Of a stretch of DNA of 64,000 nucleotides, positions 53,189 to 61,463 are shown one piece after another. The number at the start of each line of letters is the position of its first letter. Within the stretch, counting starts at the first letter, position 1. The position numbers and the translations under genes were made by a program. The DNA comes from an uncultured Eubacterium sp. (lineage in GTDB: Bacteria > Bacillota > Clostridia > Oscillospirales > Acutalibacteraceae). The notes below the pieces were generated by a model, which was given only the letters and a program-made list of their open reading frames with translations, searched no databases and was not told the origin of the DNA. The stretch lies in NCBI GenBank assembly GCA_944380545.1, contig CALWHV010000014.1, positions 1-64,000 on the forward strand. Direction: 5' to 3'.

Positions 53189-54178
53189 ATGAATTCAAAA
53201 AAGATAAAAACTATCCTCATTTATAAATACCTTTATAAATATTCGGATGCGCAAAATCCCATATCCTCCTCGCGCCTTATAGAGCTGCTCGGCGAAGAGG
53301 GCGTTGAGTGCGAGCGCAAAAGCATTTATTCCGATATAAAAGCCCTCAACGAGTGCGGCGTCAAGGTCGTTTCCACCCGCACCCCAAGGCGCGGCTTTTA
53401 TCTTGATTCGCGCGAGTTCCGCGTGCCGGAGGTGCGTCTGCTTATTGACGCGGTCAATTCCGCGCCGTTCATCACCCCGCAGATGACCCGCGCCCTGGCG
53501 GATAAGCTGAAGGGGCTGCTCTCCCAAAAGCAGGCGAAGAGCCTGTCGTTCCAGGTCTATCGCGACGATGTAAATAAATGCGATAACGAGGGCATTTATA
53601 ATATAATAGACACGCTTGATAAGGCGATAAACAGCCGCCGCCTCGTCCGCCTCAAATACCGCACCAGAAAGATAGATAAGGAAAATAAAAAAAGCTTCAC
53701 AACAAAGCTTTTCACACTATCACCCTATGCGCTTATATGGAAAAACGATAAATACTATCTTGTGTGCAACAAAAGCAGCCACGATAACCTTATGAACCTG
53801 CGGCTGGACCGCATCCGAGATATAATGATCCTTGATTCTCCTGCGCGGCCCGTCGGCGAGTGCAGCGAATATAAAAATTTTGACGCGGCAGATTATTCCG
53901 CAAAAATGTTTAATATGTTCACCGGCAGTGTGGAAACGGTCACCCTCAAATGCGATCTTGACCTTCGCGAGCAGATCCTTGACCGCTTCGGTCCGTCCGT
54001 GCCGCTCACAGCAACGGATGTGGACCATTTTAAGACCGATGTTCAGGTTGCAGTAAGCGACGGCTTCGTTTCCTGGATAATGCAGTTCGGCGATATGATA
54101 GAGGTGCTCAGCCCCGCATCGCTTGCAGAGCTCGTGCGCGATAAGGCTCAAAAAATCGCCGCCGTCTATTCAGAATGA
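53189..54178 (+). CDS. HTH-WYL transcriptional regulator
   Basis: The 329-residue protein has an N-terminal winged helix (residues 1-75, with SRLIELLGEEGVECERKSIY) and a C-terminal WYL domain (about 145-225) containing SPYALIWKNDKYYLVCNKS, then a WCX tail ending in PASLAELVRDKA. WYL domains sense small nucleic-acid or nucleotide ligands in several systems. It stands alone between the PBP and a hairpin-rich spacer; its target is unknown. The ATG at 53189 follows GAAGGTG. Confidence 0.88.
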   Translation: MNSKKIKTILIYKYLYKYSDAQNPISSSRLIELLGEEGVECERKSIYSDIKALNECGVKVVSTRTPRRGFYLDSREFRVPEVRLLIDAVNSAPFITPQMTRALADKLKGLLSQKQAKSLSFQVYRDDVNKCDNEGIYNIIDTLDKAINSRRLVRLKYRTRKIDKENKKSFTTKLFTLSPYALIWKNDKYYLVCNKSSHDNLMNLRLDRIRDIMILDSPARPVGECSEYKNFDAADYSAKMFNMFTGSVETVTLKCDLDLREQILDRFGPSVPLTATDVDHFKTDVQVAVSDGFVSWIMQFGDMIEVLSPASLAELVRDKAQKIAAVYSE

Positions 54179-54482: not shown

Positions 54483-55649
54483 TTATATTATCTCAAGCTC
54501 GCGAAGCAGCTCGCCGTATTGTATGTCCTCAGCGCCGCTCTTTGCGATTTCATCTATCGTGCGGCGCGATTTATTGAAATGCAGAAAAACCGCCTTAAAC
54601 AGCCGCACAAGCCACGCTGCGCCTATCAGATAAGGCCGTCTTTCAACCCAGCCGTAGCGCAGCTTAAGCTCCCTTGCCGGCAGGAATATCATATGCCGAA
54701 GCGCCTTCAGCTTTGCGCCTGCTTTGCTGCTTCCTCCTGCGCCCATAGCTATGTAATGGCCGCCCATTGAGCGCGCGCTGAAGCCGAAGCTGCCGGAGCG
54801 TATAACCTCCTCGCCGAGCGAATCAATAAGCTTTCGGCTCAAATCAAATTCCGCGTCCACCGGTGTGCAGAACCATTTTGCGCAAAGCGCAAGGCTCGTC
54901 TTGGCAAAGGTGAAAATACCGGCGGCTTTGCATTTGTCGTAAAAACTGCTTTTCGGTGCGCCGAAAGCCCTGATAAGCACATCGGCGTCCATAAACATCT
55001 TTATGCCCGCACCGCAGTTTTTAAAATGCTTTGCCGCGTGGCACAAAACATACAGTAAATGCTCCTCGGGCGGCAGCGCGTACTCACTGCCGTTTTCGCA
55101 GGTGCAAAGCGCAAATATATTTTTAAAATAGTCGTTGTCGCAGTCAAGCTCGCCGTGTATCTCTATGTGCTGATTTCCCATATATGCGGAAAATGCGCTT
55201 GAGCCGTCGTCCTTGGTTTGCAGCCCCTCGCGCTCAAAACGCGCCTTGCAGTCAGAGAGCGAGGCGTTCCTGATTACTATGTCCGTGTCGCTCCCCGTGC
55301 GAAGCTCCGGGGCAGGGTAGAGCTCGCGCAGAACAGCGCCTTTAACGAATATGAAATCTATTCCCGCCGCGCTGAATTTTTCGCGCACGAAGCTCATCAG
55401 CCTCTCGCGCTCAGCCGCGTCTATCACGGCGTAGCCCACCTGCTGCTTAAACGCAGACGCAGCTTTCGCCTGTGGCAGCGCGCCGTTCTTGAGACTTGAT
55501 ACCTCGCTGCCGATTATCGACGCAACGCCGTGCTCCGTGCTCAATGCGTAAAGCGCGTCAAAATCAACGCCGTCGGGCGCAGAAGGCGGCTCTGCGCCGT
55601 TCAGATGAGCCGATATAAGCTTGATAAAATACTTTTCGGAAATATCCAT
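54483..55649 (-). CDS. NTP_transf_5-type nucleotidyltransferase
   Basis: The 388-residue protein matches the uncharacterised nucleotidyltransferase family PF14907. The N-terminal domain contains DFIFVKGAVLRELYPAPELRTGSDTDIVI-type text: K103-G-A, R117 and the catalytic D121-T-D123. The middle and C-terminal part are helical, with HAAKHFKNCGAGIKMFMDADVL. In the literature such proteins are found near peptide natural-product genes and other systems; a target here is not known. A promoter lies at 55683-55711. It is preceded by the small peptide gene's terminator. Confidence 0.8.
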   Translation of the reverse strand: MDISEKYFIKLISAHLNGAEPPSAPDGVDFDALYALSTEHGVASIIGSEVSSLKNGALPQAKAASAFKQQVGYAVIDAAERERLMSFVREKFSAAGIDFIFVKGAVLRELYPAPELRTGSDTDIVIRNASLSDCKARFEREGLQTKDDGSSAFSAYMGNQHIEIHGELDCDNDYFKNIFALCTCENGSEYALPPEEHLLYVLCHAAKHFKNCGAGIKMFMDADVLIRAFGAPKSSFYDKCKAAGIFTFAKTSLALCAKWFCTPVDAEFDLSRKLIDSLGEEVIRSGSFGFSARSMGGHYIAMGAGGSSKAGAKLKALRHMIFLPARELKLRYGWVERRPYLIGAAWLVRLFKAVFLHFNKSRRTIDEIAKSGAEDIQYGELLRELEII

Positions 55650-55738: not shown

Positions 55739-55763
55739 GCCCGGACGGTAAATCCGTCCGGGC
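55739..55763 (-). terminator. Terminator after the 40-residue peptide gene
   Basis: A perfect 10-bp stem GCCCGGACGG/CCGTCCGGGC with a 5-base loop lies 17 bases past the peptide stop. On the minus strand it is followed by TTTTCTTTG, a U-rich tail. It ends the sialidase and peptide transcript before the nucleotidyltransferase gene. Confidence 0.8.
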
Positions 55764-55779
55764 AAAATTGATTTTGCGA

Positions 55780-55902
55780 TCAGAATTCGAGCGCAACCGG
55801 ATATTCTGTATCCGGGTTTTCGCTTACTGTTGTTAATATGGAATTCTGAGTGCTGAATTTTTCAACGTCAAAGGAAGGCGTTGTGTATTTCTTTTTGTCC
55901 AT
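55780..55902 (-). CDS. 40-residue peptide of unknown function
   Basis: This 40-residue open frame begins MDKKKYTTPSFDVEKF, continues with STQNSILTTVSENPD and ends in TEYPVALEF. It has a charged N-terminus with a K-Y-x-x-P-x-F pattern, a central hydrophobic and Thr/Ser patch (ILTT), and an acidic Pro-containing tail. It resembles the leader-core layout of small clostridial peptides of unknown role, some proposed as RiPP precursors. It has no Cys. A strong ribosome site (GGGAGG) lies 12 bases upstream, the sialidase stop is only 20 bases before its ATG, and a terminator follows. It has not been described as a gene in any obvious family that I can name. Confidence 0.7.
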   Translation of the reverse strand: MDKKKYTTPSFDVEKFSTQNSILTTVSENPDTEYPVALEF

Positions 55903-55922
55903 AACTTAACTTCCTCCCTTTC

Positions 55923-58900
55923 TCAATTAACGGGCACCACTTCAGGCTTGCCGTCCGAACCGAGTCTGTAAACAAATATTCTGCTTGCATATTCAACATA
56001 GGGTGCTGTAATCGAACCCGGATCCGTTATATCCGGATTGGTCTGATCCTCTCCGGCGTCAAAATCTTTGGTGTAACATACATATGCTCTCAGATAGTAA
56101 GGACCGGTTGCTCCGTTCGGGTTAAGTGTTATTGTGAATGTGCCGGAATTTGTGTCTCCATCGTTCCAGTGCGCTATTCTGTTTGCAGGAAGCGAGCGTA
56201 CTGCGCTGTTCTGGTCTGAATCATTTTTAACAAATCCGTCATTTTCAATAATGCTCGAATCACTTGTCAAAAGAGCTCCGGCTTCAACAACCTTAACACT
56301 GTCAGGTGCTGAGTAATCAACAGAAATTGTGAATTTCTCGTTGGCAAGGTAAGCGCTTCCGTAAACAGCTGGATTGTTCATCCTCATTATCTGCTCGTAT
56401 TGAGTAGAGCCGGGCGCATAAGCTGTATAATTGATATCTTCGTTAGTTGTGAAGTTAACAAACGAGGAATCAAACGAAGCAACATAATCAACGCCGTTTA
56501 TTTGCTTTACCCAAACAGAACCGGGCTGATCAGCTTCAATCGTCAGCTTTTCGTTGAAGTAGGGCGTTGCAAAGCTTTCCTTGCCGTTTACTGTCCCGCC
56601 TGATACCGTTATCGTTTTGTCAACGCCGGCGTTAAGAGAACCGTATTGCGAAATAGTAGCCGCTTCTTTATAGGTGTAAACGCCGTCGCCGACAGACCAG
56701 CCTGTGAACTTAAATTTAGGCGATTCCTTAGCTGTGATTACGGTATCGCCGATTGTAATGGTGTTGCCGTTTACATAAATCTGAGTTCCGTTTTCCGGAT
56801 CAACATAGCCTGTGCCTATAACGGTGCCGTAATAATCCTTAACCGTTATTATCTCGTTTGTGAAGACCTCAACATCGATCGTTGTGTCTTCCTGAATCAT
56901 TACGGAAAGTATATTGTCAAGATCTGAAACATTATAAGTAACGCCCTTGTCGTTCTCATCATTTGTTTGCTTTACGGAAAGCTGAATGGTGTATTCGGCG
57001 CTTGCATACTGAGTCAGGTCAAACTGCGCTATTTCACCGTAATGATATTCTGTGTTTGATTCATCCTGTATCTCACCGTCAAGGCTCAGCGAATATGCAA
57101 CATTGTACTTGGCAACATTTCCGCTTTCTGCGCCGTCCGCTACATTTATGTTCATTTGTGTAAGAAGTTCTGTCGTGAAGGCGTCGAGAGCCTTCTGGCT
57201 GAGCGCGGGAATGTTTACATAATATTGCTCGTTAGAACCGTCCTTGCTGTAAAGCGTATAAATATCCTGATATTCGCGAGTGTCGCCCGGAATGTAATCT
57301 CCCTCGCCGAAATATGCGTCCGCTATTGCCTGTTTAATTGCCGCGCCGCCATCGGTATATGCGTCAAGATCTATCATATCAGCTTCTTCTTCAGCGGCAA
57401 TGAAAACTTCATCGTCCGCAGCAACAACCGGCTTTGATGCCACAAGCGTATCGTACAGATCGTCGATCCTTATCTGCTGCCATGTTCTGTAAGCGTCCTC
57501 GGTGGGAACGGCGGGTCCGTCGATATATGTTTCGTCATCAAGATTCGGCGTAAGCACATATCCCGGAACATCAAGGCGCTTATCCTCTGTATCATAAAGA
57601 TATTCGCCCGTTGAAGAATCAATCGATTCCATAAACGCTACGGCCGACTCATATGCGGTTTCAAACTTTTCAAAGCTTTCCGGAGTGTAGTTTGTACCGT
57701 TCTGAAGCCTTATTCCGCTTTCGTATATGGCTTCGTCGTTTGCAATCTCGTTCATAAGATCGTCAAAATTGGCTCTCTTCTGAAGATATCTTTCTGCAAG
57801 ATCAACGGTGTCTGCGCCGTCATGGTCAAAATACGATTCGTATGTGCTGTATTCATCGGGCTTGCTGTGCCACGGCCTTTGGGCGGCAGTTGTTGTCAGC
57901 GTGTAGTTGTTAAGATACTCCTGCCTTATGAGCAGAGCGTTCATATAGTTGCTCCAGGAAGCTCTTGTAAAGTCTGTAGACTTTTTGATGTCGCTGACTG
58001 CTGCTTCATACGGCGCGCGCTCCTCTGATTTGTCGCACATAATGACCTCAAAGGTGAGCTTCATATCGTTCCAGCATTTGGGAACATTGCTGCCCGATGG
58101 CTCGGCGCCTTCCTGATATCTTACAATGCCCCTAACTGTTTGCTCTGTGTTTGGAGTAACACTCGTCGTAACATCAACGGTAGCGGTCCTCTTTGTGTTC
58201 ATTATCTCTGTGTCGTCATAAGGGCTGTTATATGACTCGCTTCCGCTTGAATTTCCGCCGAACTGGTAATATTCAGTTGCTATTTCTCCGTCGCCCGAAA
58301 GCTTTTGGATATAGCTTCTATTGCCGTCACCTATTTTAATGTCTCTGTTCCAGTAGCTATTCGGCGAATATTCAATGTTAATAGGCTCGCGCGTTACATT
58401 AAAGGAGAATTTATCGCTGTCACTCGGATCAACCGTTATGCCTTGATTGTGGTCTGAGCTTTTGTCGTAATAGTAATACGCAACTGTTATGTTATTATTC
58501 ACATCCTGGACACGCAGATTATGAATTTCGGTATCGTCACTGCCATTGTTGTGTACCATAACGCCGGCGCCCTTGAATTCCGTGCTGTTGTCCTTTGCGT
58601 TGAATATATCCTCATATTTGCCGTTATAACGCATAACACCGTTTTCGGGGAACAATATGCGCGCGTTGCCTACATAAGCGTATTCATTGTTGAATGTTCC
58701 GCTGCGTGATAATGTTGTGTTGCCGTAAGAGCCTTCAGCCATAATATAAGTCGGCAGAGCAACTGTTCTTGTTTCCACAGCCCCCCAAAAATATCTGCTT
58801 ACCAAGTTGCCGCTGATAACATGTCCCGGAACGGGGTTCGAAGCAACATAAAGCCTGTCGGACTGCGTCCAGATTGCGCCGGTACTGTCCTGCAGCGTTG

Positions 58901-61463
58901 TTTTCAGCGTTACATATGTGCCGCTGTTATAGGCGTTGTAATCTGAATTGCTTGCGGCGTTCAGCGTGCCGGTAAGTCTTCCTGTTCCGTCTCCGTTATC
59001 AATGTACTTTATGTTTGAGGCGATCGCTTCTTCACTGCCGAACGCCTCAACGGCAGTTATATCAGTAATTGTATAGGAGGTGTCGTTAAGTCTGAAATCC
59101 GTGTATTTTTCGCCAAGCTCGCTTCCGTCTGCAATATTCTGGCCGAAGAGCTGGATTTCGCCGCCATGCGTGTAAATAACCGGGTCGTAATCCACAACGC
59201 CTGTTATCTCTCTTGAATAGTCGTTTACTTCAATATTGTATGTGTCAAGACCGGCGGTTATTGTGGTGTTGCCTCTTGCAAGCGCCTTAACTGTCATATT
59301 GTATCTGTCTGCGCTCGTTTCGCTGTTCATACGGATTGTATGGGAGTAAACATTATCCGGCTGATAAGACGGATAGAGGAAATACCACTGTCCGCTGATC
59401 TCCTTGCCTATAAGATACTGACCGCCCTCGGTTATCTGGTTAACAGCCTTGTAGCCATTAACAGGATCCGCTGCCGTGTTTGCTTCGCCGGCCGCAAGAG
59501 GTCTGAAAAGCTTAAACAGCGTGTATTCGCGGTCGCGTCCGTCAAAATCGCCGCCCGCCTGTCCGTGAGCCGTCGTCTGGTCAAAGCGTCCCTCGTTGCC
59601 TGCGTCGGTGTGCATATAGAGCGCTTCGTTAGCAAGGTCTATGAACTGGAAATATGTGCCGTTTTCAACGCTGTAGATATTGATTGGCTCGCGGTCTTTT
59701 GTAGAGGGCTGACCCGCTGTGTCAATAGTCAGATGAACGCCCTGGCTGCTGACATACCATCTGCCGTTGTCGTCCTGTTCAAAGCTGTAAAGAGCATCGG
59801 AAAGCGGTATGCTCAGTCCGGAGTAGCTGCTGTCGCTGCCCATATTTGCCTTGCCCTGCTCAACAACACTGCACTCGGCTGAAACAATGCTCGGATCTGC
59901 GATTTCAACACTGTTTGTAGAAACGGTAAAGGTGCGTTCGTCGTTTTTAAGCATTGAAACATCGTAAGCGTGCGGCAGACCCTGTATACGGTAGCCGCTG
60001 ATTGATTCAATATCCGGAGCGTGCGCATAGCGGATTGACGCTGCTTCATATTCATAAAGCAGGTCTATCTGGCCGTTCGGAAGCTCCGTAAGGCTTGAGT
60101 AAGCAAAGAAGGTTGTGTTTATCTGATGCTGTACGGCGGCAACAAAATTATTGTTGCTGTCAATAAGCATAAAGGTGAGCGTGCCGTGAGACCTGTCGTC
60201 CGCGTTCGCATGCGAGGCGATAAGCATCGTGTAGTAGTTGCCGTTGTAAAGCACCTTGCGCGAATATTTTATAACGCAGTACTGGTTGTTCGGCGTGCAT
60301 TCAAAATCGTCTCCGTAAACGCTTAAGTCAAGAGAAACGGGATCTCCAACCCATTCATATTCGCCGTTTGAATTGAGGCGCGCGTCAATGTAATTGAAGC
60401 GCGGCCTTGCAGAGCGCATAAAGAGCCTTACTGTTCCGTCGTCAAGCAGCACGGGGCAGCACTCGCTGCTCCAGTCGCCATAGGGTATCCAAAGCGAAAG
60501 CCCCGGGCAGTCCGCAGACCTTTTCCAGGTCTTGCCGCCGTCGCGCGAGTAAACAAGGCACGAACGCTGGGTGCTGTCAGCGCTTGAAAGGATTCCGCCC
60601 TCGTTCCATTGGTATGCGCCGAAGATGATGGTGCCGTCCTTGGTTGCAATGCCGCGACCGGGACCTACGCCGAGAAATTGCTCGTCGTCGTTCTTGAGGT
60701 TGAGCAGCTGCATGCCGGACCAGGTCTGCCCCTTGTCCGAAGAAGTGCGGAAAACAAGGAATGTCGTTTTTACAGTCTGGAACTCTGCGTCGCTGTAAAA
60801 TACAGTGCCCGCCTTTGAACCGTTGTTGTAGATATAGTATTCTTCGTCAACGGTGTAGCCGTTTACCGCCTGGCCGTTGTTGCTGTATATCTGAGCCGAG
60901 CCGTTAACAAATTCACCAAGATAATAATTGAATCCGCTTTCGCCGTTTCTTCTCAGCATCAGCCTGCCCTGCGCGTCAAACGCATTGTCCTCAACAGGTC
61001 GGTTGTCTGCGCTTGACTCGTTGATGGCAACGCCGGCGGGGAAGAAGGTTGTAAGGGTATAAAGATTAACTCCGTCAGTAGCAAGCGCTGAGTCGCAAAC
61101 GCTTGTTGACGAAGTGTTGAACACATCGCCGTTGTCCGGATAGTAAGTAACAAGGCTCCAATCCCAGGTGGCGCCGTTGTCATCCGAAACTGCAATGATG
61201 CTGTCGTTTCCGCCGCCGTCCATACCGCCGTTCCAGCGTGTGTCCGCCATGGCAACAAGCGTTCCGTCGTCAAGGGTGACGATGTTCGGTATACGGTAAA
61301 GATCGGACGGATTACCTGCCGTAAAAGGCTGACCCTCGCTCGTTCCCGTTTGCTTGCCGCCGCCGCTTTCAACGGTGGCGTACGCAACAAGCGGTGCGCT
61401 CGTTGCCACCATCAAAACAGCGAGGAAGAGGGAAAGCAGCCTTTTTGAAAGGTGTTTCTTCAT
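55923..61463 (-). CDS. Large secreted sialidase (GH33-type) with multi-domain C-terminus
   Basis: The enzyme would remove terminal sialic acid from host glycans. The 1846-residue protein has a signal peptide (1-29), then a sialidase propeller from about residue 50 to 490 with YRIPNIV (R57 of the arginine triad), Asp boxes SDDNGATW (93-100), SSDKGQTW (241-248) and SRDGGKTW (306-313), and SSECCPVLLDDGTVRLFMRS. The long remainder holds beta-sandwich modules, a FIVAR-like helical stretch (NYTPESFEKFETAYESAVAF) and repeat-like beta domains. No LPXTG, SLH or dockerin is seen at the end, so it is probably released or held by non-covalent contact. The start follows AGGAGG. Confidence 0.88.
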   Translation of the reverse strand: MKKHLSKRLLSLFLAVLMVATSAPLVAYATVESGGGKQTGTSEGQPFTAGNPSDLYRIPNIVTLDDGTLVAMADTRWNGGMDGGGNDSIIAVSDDNGATWDWSLVTYYPDNGDVFNTSSTSVCDSALATDGVNLYTLTTFFPAGVAINESSADNRPVEDNAFDAQGRLMLRRNGESGFNYYLGEFVNGSAQIYSNNGQAVNGYTVDEEYYIYNNGSKAGTVFYSDAEFQTVKTTFLVFRTSSDKGQTWSGMQLLNLKNDDEQFLGVGPGRGIATKDGTIIFGAYQWNEGGILSSADSTQRSCLVYSRDGGKTWKRSADCPGLSLWIPYGDWSSECCPVLLDDGTVRLFMRSARPRFNYIDARLNSNGEYEWVGDPVSLDLSVYGDDFECTPNNQYCVIKYSRKVLYNGNYYTMLIASHANADDRSHGTLTFMLIDSNNNFVAAVQHQINTTFFAYSSLTELPNGQIDLLYEYEAASIRYAHAPDIESISGYRIQGLPHAYDVSMLKNDERTFTVSTNSVEIADPSIVSAECSVVEQGKANMGSDSSYSGLSIPLSDALYSFEQDDNGRWYVSSQGVHLTIDTAGQPSTKDREPINIYSVENGTYFQFIDLANEALYMHTDAGNEGRFDQTTAHGQAGGDFDGRDREYTLFKLFRPLAAGEANTAADPVNGYKAVNQITEGGQYLIGKEISGQWYFLYPSYQPDNVYSHTIRMNSETSADRYNMTVKALARGNTTITAGLDTYNIEVNDYSREITGVVDYDPVIYTHGGEIQLFGQNIADGSELGEKYTDFRLNDTSYTITDITAVEAFGSEEAIASNIKYIDNGDGTGRLTGTLNAASNSDYNAYNSGTYVTLKTTLQDSTGAIWTQSDRLYVASNPVPGHVISGNLVSRYFWGAVETRTVALPTYIMAEGSYGNTTLSRSGTFNNEYAYVGNARILFPENGVMRYNGKYEDIFNAKDNSTEFKGAGVMVHNNGSDDTEIHNLRVQDVNNNITVAYYYYDKSSDHNQGITVDPSDSDKFSFNVTREPINIEYSPNSYWNRDIKIGDGNRSYIQKLSGDGEIATEYYQFGGNSSGSESYNSPYDDTEIMNTKRTATVDVTTSVTPNTEQTVRGIVRYQEGAEPSGSNVPKCWNDMKLTFEVIMCDKSEERAPYEAAVSDIKKSTDFTRASWSNYMNALLIRQEYLNNYTLTTTAAQRPWHSKPDEYSTYESYFDHDGADTVDLAERYLQKRANFDDLMNEIANDEAIYESGIRLQNGTNYTPESFEKFETAYESAVAFMESIDSSTGEYLYDTEDKRLDVPGYVLTPNLDDETYIDGPAVPTEDAYRTWQQIRIDDLYDTLVASKPVVAADDEVFIAAEEEADMIDLDAYTDGGAAIKQAIADAYFGEGDYIPGDTREYQDIYTLYSKDGSNEQYYVNIPALSQKALDAFTTELLTQMNINVADGAESGNVAKYNVAYSLSLDGEIQDESNTEYHYGEIAQFDLTQYASAEYTIQLSVKQTNDENDKGVTYNVSDLDNILSVMIQEDTTIDVEVFTNEIITVKDYYGTVIGTGYVDPENGTQIYVNGNTITIGDTVITAKESPKFKFTGWSVGDGVYTYKEAATISQYGSLNAGVDKTITVSGGTVNGKESFATPYFNEKLTIEADQPGSVWVKQINGVDYVASFDSSFVNFTTNEDINYTAYAPGSTQYEQIMRMNNPAVYGSAYLANEKFTISVDYSAPDSVKVVEAGALLTSDSSIIENDGFVKNDSDQNSAVRSLPANRIAHWNDGDTNSGTFTITLNPNGATGPYYLRAYVCYTKDFDAGEDQTNPDITDPGSITAPYVEYASRIFVYRLGSDGKPEVVPVN

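Follow-up and report, generated by a model that had tools for sequence, protein, structure and literature searches.

A 40-codon frame lies between a gene for a very large sialidase and a nucleotidyltransferase gene in the 64,000-nucleotide stretch of DNA analysed here (the window). It raises the questions of whether a frame of this size is a gene at all, what kind of product it encodes, and which of its two neighbours is its partner. A first-pass annotation of the window had offered several answers: a RiPP-like precursor, a nucleotidylated peptide, or a partner of the sialidase. On the comparative evidence set out below, we consider it probable that the gene encodes the precursor of a RiPP resembling the linear polyphosphorylated peptides (LPPs) (Popov et al., 2026; PMC13381572), and that this precursor and a giant exported protein are expressed together.

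The peptide gene and its surroundings

The peptide gene occupies positions 55780 to 55902 on the reverse strand, with its ATG at 55902 (sequence MDKKKYTTPSFDVEKFSTQNSILTTVSENPDTEYPVALEF). Residues 1 to approximately 26 of its product correspond to a leader (containing Y6, P9 and F16), Ser27 is the conserved serine of a T-x-S motif, and residues 28-40 form an acidic tail with EF at its end. A Shine-Dalgarno motif, GGGAGG, can be read from the sequence at 55913 to 55918 (reverse strand), 10 nt 5' of the ATG and just past the sialidase stop. The sialidase frame stops at 55923, leaving a gap of 20 nt to the peptide ATG. The 40-codon frame, the ribosome site and the 20-nt gap behind the sialidase had thus been described accurately in the first-pass annotation. 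It had also stated that the gene ends at a hairpin terminator. An intrinsic terminator-like hairpin is present downstream (55739 to 55763, reverse strand; a 10-bp stem with 9 G-C pairs and a T-rich tail, TTTTCTTT), but the gene does not literally end there, as the hairpin begins 16 nt 3' of the peptide stop codon. This hairpin is the strongest terminator-like site in the region, and it closes the sialidase-peptide unit.

The gene upstream (55923 to 61463, reverse strand) encodes a giant secreted protein of 1846 aa with a signal peptide-like start, BNR/sialidase repeats (BNR_2, E 8e-12) and a C-terminal Ig-like beta-sandwich domain (CTD; approximately residues 1686-1846, positions 55926 to 56408, reverse strand) that is common to most of the peptide-linked giants. 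This protein and the peptide are likely co-transcribed. Downstream of the peptide, positions 54483 to 55649 (reverse strand) encode an NTP_transf_5 (PF14907) nucleotidyltransferase of 388 aa with a GS-DTD motif (E 1.8e-34; 119.9 bits, against a Pfam gathering cut-off of 31.2). The identities given earlier to the upstream and the next gene are therefore both backed by Pfam matches. Beyond the nucleotidyltransferase, the next gene is a WYL-domain regulator on the opposite strand (53189 to 54178).

An undescribed family of small peptides

A search with the single window sequence retrieved relatives throughout the genus. They share the layout MKK-x-Y-x-x-P-x-x-E-I-E-K-F, followed by a short stretch, I-T-T-S or a variant of it, and a tail rich in Gly, Asp and Glu that often has EF, EW or WGS at its end. 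Among 39 aligned members the leader Tyr and Pro are invariant, and the F is conserved in more than 90%. In 52 of 56 peptides a Ser is found 17 to 21 residues past the Tyr, in most cases at Tyr+19 to Tyr+21, and the tails of the 56 peptides carry a mean net charge of about -5. The family is undescribed and multi-copy: no model in Pfam or NCBIfam describes it, and the window genome alone encodes four peptides, located behind secreted proteins of 1846, 2035, 990 and 1507 aa.

Two outcomes had been named in advance as fatal to the idea of a functional peptide, namely a lack of amino-acid conservation in related genomes, or equal rates of synonymous and non-synonymous change. Neither was found, since the family profile identifies members in 70 of the 80 genomes of the genus, and among the 493 pairs that share 40% identity or more, pN is lower than pS in 492. 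In most close pairs dN/dS is approximately 0.05-0.2. The other 10 of the 80 genomes gave no match to the profile at E<=0.1. A chance ORF is ruled out by the conservation, the selection at the codon level and the lack of matches in these 10 control genomes.

Association with giant secreted proteins

The placement of the peptide behind the sialidase is not peculiar to the window. Within the family, 41 of 56 peptides are located at most 100 nt behind a gene of at least 800 aa on the same strand, versus 1.5% of the control genes from the same loci (Fisher p ~2e-42), which supports the earlier suggestion that the peptide is a partner of the sialidase. The upstream giants span 800 to 2,400 aa, and the gap between giant and peptide is 2-31 nt in most loci. 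Judged by gene placement, the upstream gene is the main partner of the peptide, and the link of the window peptide to the sialidase is real.

The giants also have a sequence feature in common. In 42 to 44 of 49 upstream proteins, a homologous domain of approximately 124 residues, the CTD, is found at the extreme C-terminus, whatever precedes it. The CTD has no match in Pfam. Its predicted structure is a confident Ig-like beta-sandwich, and a fold search returned generic Ig-like matches only, with no Foldseek hit at E <1e-3, a best Z of 8.7 and no specific relative, which gives no pointer to its function. At least 75 of 90 strong CTD matches in the genus have a peptide within 300 nt downstream. 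This figure is inflated by partial circularity, as linked giants served to build the CTD profile, and it is at the same time a lower bound, being counted among the peptides listed. Distances between peptides correlate with those between their CTDs (Mantel r 0.36, permutation p 0.0005), and type B peptides always occur with type B CTDs (the types were defined after inspection). Such a correlation is the pattern that would be expected of co-inherited partners, and does not in itself prove contact.

The association with giants bears on a different reading of the peptide, as a diffusible signal or antimicrobial RiPP that is found near giants only through shared conditions, without any physical partnership. 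Many RiPPs are exported bioactive peptides, and the variable acidic tails of the family would suit diversifying products. In addition, LPPs and paeninodin have a patchy, conflict-like distribution in Bacilli (PMC13381572). However, neither an immunity gene nor a dedicated exporter adjoins the peptide in the window's genus, and the same class of giant with the same CTD is a recurrent neighbour. The co-variation of peptide and CTD also speaks for a partnership, although co-inheritance of an operon could equally produce it. We regard a signal or antimicrobial function as rather unlikely, and a putative partnership with the giant remains our preferred explanation.

Some loci contain more than one unit of giant and peptide. 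At L058 (G020:C35) and L057 (G016:C1) such units occur in tandem within one locus, and the two peptides of L057, 6.5 kb apart, are identical, indicating that the pair was recently duplicated. Ten further loci (L043, L046, L048, L051, L066, L069, L073, L076, L078 and L194) have a giant-peptide unit directly 5' of one conserved block of 292-aa, 83-aa, guanylate kinase-like, 740-aa helicase-like and deformylase-like genes. One such unit may thus have kept an old, conserved location before this block.

Predicted leader recognition, kinase and peptidase

The YxxP leaders of lasso peptides and LPPs serve as binding sites for PqqD-type recognition elements, or RREs (PMC13381572). The profile of the RREs found in our genomes matches the LppB-LppA leader complex (9x8z) and the lasso RREs in the PDB. 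Asn35 and Asp72 are invariant in 10 RREs and align to N33 and D70 of LppB (residue numbers in the 9x8z chain differ by 18 from those in the paper, as checked on several named pocket residues), and both are present in one of the two RREs of the window genome, RRE-1. N33 and D70 of LppB hold the leader Pro and Tyr, whereas PbaB1 has G42 and Q79 instead (PMC13381572).

The HprK-like protein has a predicted HprK fold and has kept the His-Lys-Asp-Asp residues, a motif that is needed in related kinases (PMC9266682). The kinase of the LPP system modifies a Ser at Tyr+18 (S3 of the motif), just past the leader (PMC13381572). The assignments of RRE, HprK-like kinase and SpI-like peptidase are based on profile similarity below the NCBIfam cut-offs, the similarity of the SpI-like protein being to archaeal-type signal peptidase I, and profile searches with the HprK-like and SpI-like alignments against solved structures gave no matches.

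The distribution of these genes follows that of the peptide. A strong PqqD-type RRE match is present in 70 of 70 peptide genomes and in none of the 10 peptide-less genomes (two background matches in the latter, E 1.7e-4 and 6.9e-4, are ignored), so that presence agrees in all 80 genomes of the genus. The HprK-like kinase is found in 63 of the 70 and 0 of the 10, the SpI-like peptidase in 65 and 0 (one marginal match, E 8.5e-4, is ignored), and the CTD in 68 and 0; many of the peptide genomes that lack one of these three are fragmented or incomplete assemblies. Among 249 genomes of the wider family, a PqqD match is present in 46 of 46 peptide carriers versus 147 of 249 overall.

Nine of the pathway-less genomes have a usable LepA. 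In a LepA tree these nine are scattered and require four changes (3-4 over the bootstrap), at least two of which are forced by strongly supported branches. As four changes are needed, the unlinked pathway genes were lost jointly more than once; we estimate three to four losses, a count based on one marker gene tree and on genomes that are largely MAGs. Loss in a single lineage was considered as a source of the co-occurrence, and the LepA tree argues against it.

Organization of the pathway genes

In other genera of the family, a large secreted protein and a peptide are followed by genes for an HprK-like kinase, a PqqD-type RRE and an SpI-like peptidase (L183, L184, L187-L189 and L191), and several of these clusters also contain an ABC exporter or an NTP_transf_5 gene; written out, the compact arrangement is giant-peptide-HprK-ABC-RRE-SpI. 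Within the genus, the order giant-peptide-HprK is found at L252 and giant-peptide-RRE at L131 and L133, arrangements that were obtained by combining gene maps with the peptide coordinates from the genus profile search.

The window genome encodes all of these enzymes, with their genes scattered over several contigs: RRE-1 on C6; RRE-2 on C17, upstream of lepA, where it overlaps an NTP_transf_5 gene; the HprK-like kinase at C4:78217-78921; and the SpI-like peptidase at C14:271.8 kb, overlapping the gene for an ABC exporter just downstream. As the enzymes are scattered in the genus, it is co-occurrence and not clustering that carries the case within it. When named genomes were scanned with the HprK-like alignment, 48 of 80 loci had an RRE profile match next to the HprK-like gene. 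This held for none of the 16 loci closest to the copy of the window genome (57-74% identity), and for this reason the scattering appears to be a trait of this lineage. The peptide pattern picked up a precursor in only 9 of the 80 HprK-like loci, from which it follows that it misses some relatives.

The invariance of the leader Tyr and Pro, the agreement with the RRE in 80 of 80 genomes and the clustering in other genera fit the conserved leader and variable core anticipated of a RiPP-like precursor, and on these comparative grounds that reading of the window peptide is well supported. The peptide could instead be an unmodified, small cytosolic helper of the giant, such as a secretion or folding factor, with a merely coincidental likeness to YxxP leaders. 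It has no signal peptide, and the gaps of 2-31 nt to the giant gene in most loci are of a size that would allow translational coupling. Such a helper would, however, require the co-presence with RRE, HprK-like and SpI-like genes to be accidental, and likewise the clustering in other genera and the retention of the Tyr- and Pro-binding residues in the RRE, which makes it improbable.

The adjacent nucleotidyltransferase

The first-pass annotation had named a nucleotidylated peptide as one option, and had proposed co-occurrence of the peptide with PF14907 proteins as a check. At the level of copy number this co-occurrence exists, with exactly one copy in 10 of 10 peptide-less genomes and 2-5 copies in all peptide genomes but two, which are incomplete. 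As a neighbour the enzyme is not general: most peptide loci have no PF14907 gene beside them, and because of this the nucleotidyltransferase was dropped as the general or main partner of the peptide.

The window genome has five NTP_transf_5 copies, including that of the window. In a PF14907 tree, an RRE-linked class groups with copies from the clusters of other genera, another class holds the sole copy of G079, a genome without the peptide, and the tree has two classes more. One of these latter two contains the window copy and is absent from G079, the only peptide-less genome placed in the tree. Its nearest relatives include copies near peptide loci in G002 and G031; only some of its relatives lie near a peptide, and the arrangement in the window is thus not a general one.

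The enzyme at 54483 to 55649 may tailor the window peptide. That it is a dedicated enzyme nucleotidylating this peptide, as initially suggested, would agree with its grouping with the peptide-near copies of G002 and G031 and with the additional PF14907 copies in nearly all peptide-containing genomes. An NTP transferase also belongs to the LPP and pseudomycoidin clusters, and PsmN has been associated with the attachment of a hexose to phospho-Ser (PMC13381572, PMC9266682). Nevertheless, the two genes have a terminator between them, such a neighbour is lacking from most peptide loci of the genus, it is a different copy that is coupled to RRE-2, and LppN, the nearest tested analogue, was inactive in a heterologous host (PMC13381572). 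A dedicated role of the adjacent enzyme is therefore doubtful.

Relation to known peptide systems

The system shares with the LPPs a YxxP leader, a discrete RRE with equivalents of N33 and D70, an HprK-like kinase, an SpI-like leader peptidase, an MsbA-like exporter and an NTP transferase, as well as a conserved Ser just past the leader, and no cyclase was recognised in the clusters seen. The window peptide has the LPP leader motif YxxPx[LVIAFY], in the form YTTPSF. In contrast to the full LPP consensus YxxPxVLxHQxIxFETxxS, the family reads YxxPExEIExF.....ITTS; it lacks VLxHQxIxFET, with neither HQ nor FET, and has T-x-S in place of T-x-x-S. The family also differs in that one genome holds several unlinked precursors, with a giant secreted protein in front of each, and in that the core genes are scattered in the window's genus (compact in other genera) rather than forming one compact cluster. 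The family was also not seen in capsule loci here. With neither the complete leader consensus nor a compact cluster in its genome, judged by sequence the window peptide is not filed as an LPP proper.

The lasso peptides paeninodin and pseudomycoidin likewise have a [YW]xxP leader, an RRE, an HprK-like kinase and an enzyme of the nucleotidyltransferase family. All 39 aligned members of our family have Tyr and not the Trp of a WxxP leader, and the RRE has Asn and Asp where that of paeninodin has Gly and Gln. An ordinary lasso peptide precursor would be in line with the shared leader motif [YW]xxPx[LVIAFY] and with RREs that are closest to those of lasso peptides and LPPs. Yet the compact clusters whose gene maps were examined (L183-L191) showed no gene recognisable as a macrolactam (lasso) cyclase or cysteine leader peptidase, and core starts and lengths vary too much for a lasso ring, leaving a lasso product very improbable and an LPP-like precursor the favoured assignment.

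Two further systems invite comparison. Prochlorosins are trans-acting, multi-precursor RiPPs, in which many scattered precursor genes share their enzymes; their precursors are not known to be paired with giant surface proteins, and their enzymes and chemistry differ from those of the family described here. C-terminal sorting domains are common domains at the extreme C-terminus of varied exported proteins, co-inherited with dedicated machinery. Here the co-inherited machinery is a RiPP pathway, and no transpeptidase or LPXTG-type motif was recognised.

A literature search found, among the papers covered, no earlier report of a RiPP precursor tied to secreted giants, or of scattered RRE pathways. 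According to the paper describing the LPPs, what LPP and paeninodin RiPPs do biologically is unknown (PMC13381572). The recurrent pairing of precursors with an identifiable class of giant surface or secreted proteins that share the CTD, and the joint disappearance of peptides, enzymes and giants, provide a first concrete, testable suggestion of the target of an LPP-type peptide. Cluster-based RiPP mining can miss whole pathways if their genes are scattered and their precursors have 35-60 codons.

Proposed mechanism

In the model that we propose, the sialidase and the peptide would be made from one transcript. By analogy with the LPP system, the Y-x-x-P of the leader would be bound by one of the two stand-alone PqqD-type RREs encoded elsewhere in the genome, and the conserved Ser of T-x-S (Ser27 in the window peptide) would be phosphorylated by the HprK-like kinase. 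An NTP_transf_5 enzyme may then put a nucleotide- or sugar-type group on the phosphate. The SpI-like peptidase would cut off the leader, and the acidic peptide would be exported by the ABC exporter whose gene overlaps that of the peptidase. Outside the cell, we hypothesize, the peptide might work together with the giant, most likely via the CTD, for example in retention, folding or surface attachment. That the mature peptide acts on the CTD of the giant is a possibility that we put forward tentatively, at somewhat less than even chances.

The joint presence and loss of peptides, enzymes and giants in these related gut bacteria suggests that modified peptides have a new role at the cell surface. 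More broadly, and with similar reserve, the RiPP pathway could be an accessory system for giant exported proteins, in which each giant has its own CTD and precursor, the peptide, once modified with phosphate and exported, binds, anchors or activates the CTD at the cell surface, and one scattered set of enzymes serves many pairs.

Other clusters in the genus

The window genome contains a second, different cluster of peptide type (L009, G000:C4:28000-46000), with an ABC transporter, a weak HprK-like match, the fifth NTP_transf_5 copy and a 524-aa radical SAM-looking protein. Another type of cluster, at L249 (G016:C4) and L251 (G009:C13), has 64-aa ORFs with a 'DDMLEAIAGG' leader, which adjoin HprK-like, SpI-like and ABC genes and a protein of 678-727 aa. 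Compact NTP-HprK-SpI-ABC sets occur within the genus at L247 (G050:C1) and L248 (G046:C36), with an RRE in L247. A 133-aa ORF of L247 has an EDVIATSG-like sequence, with Asn replacing the leader Tyr, and is possibly a divergent precursor.
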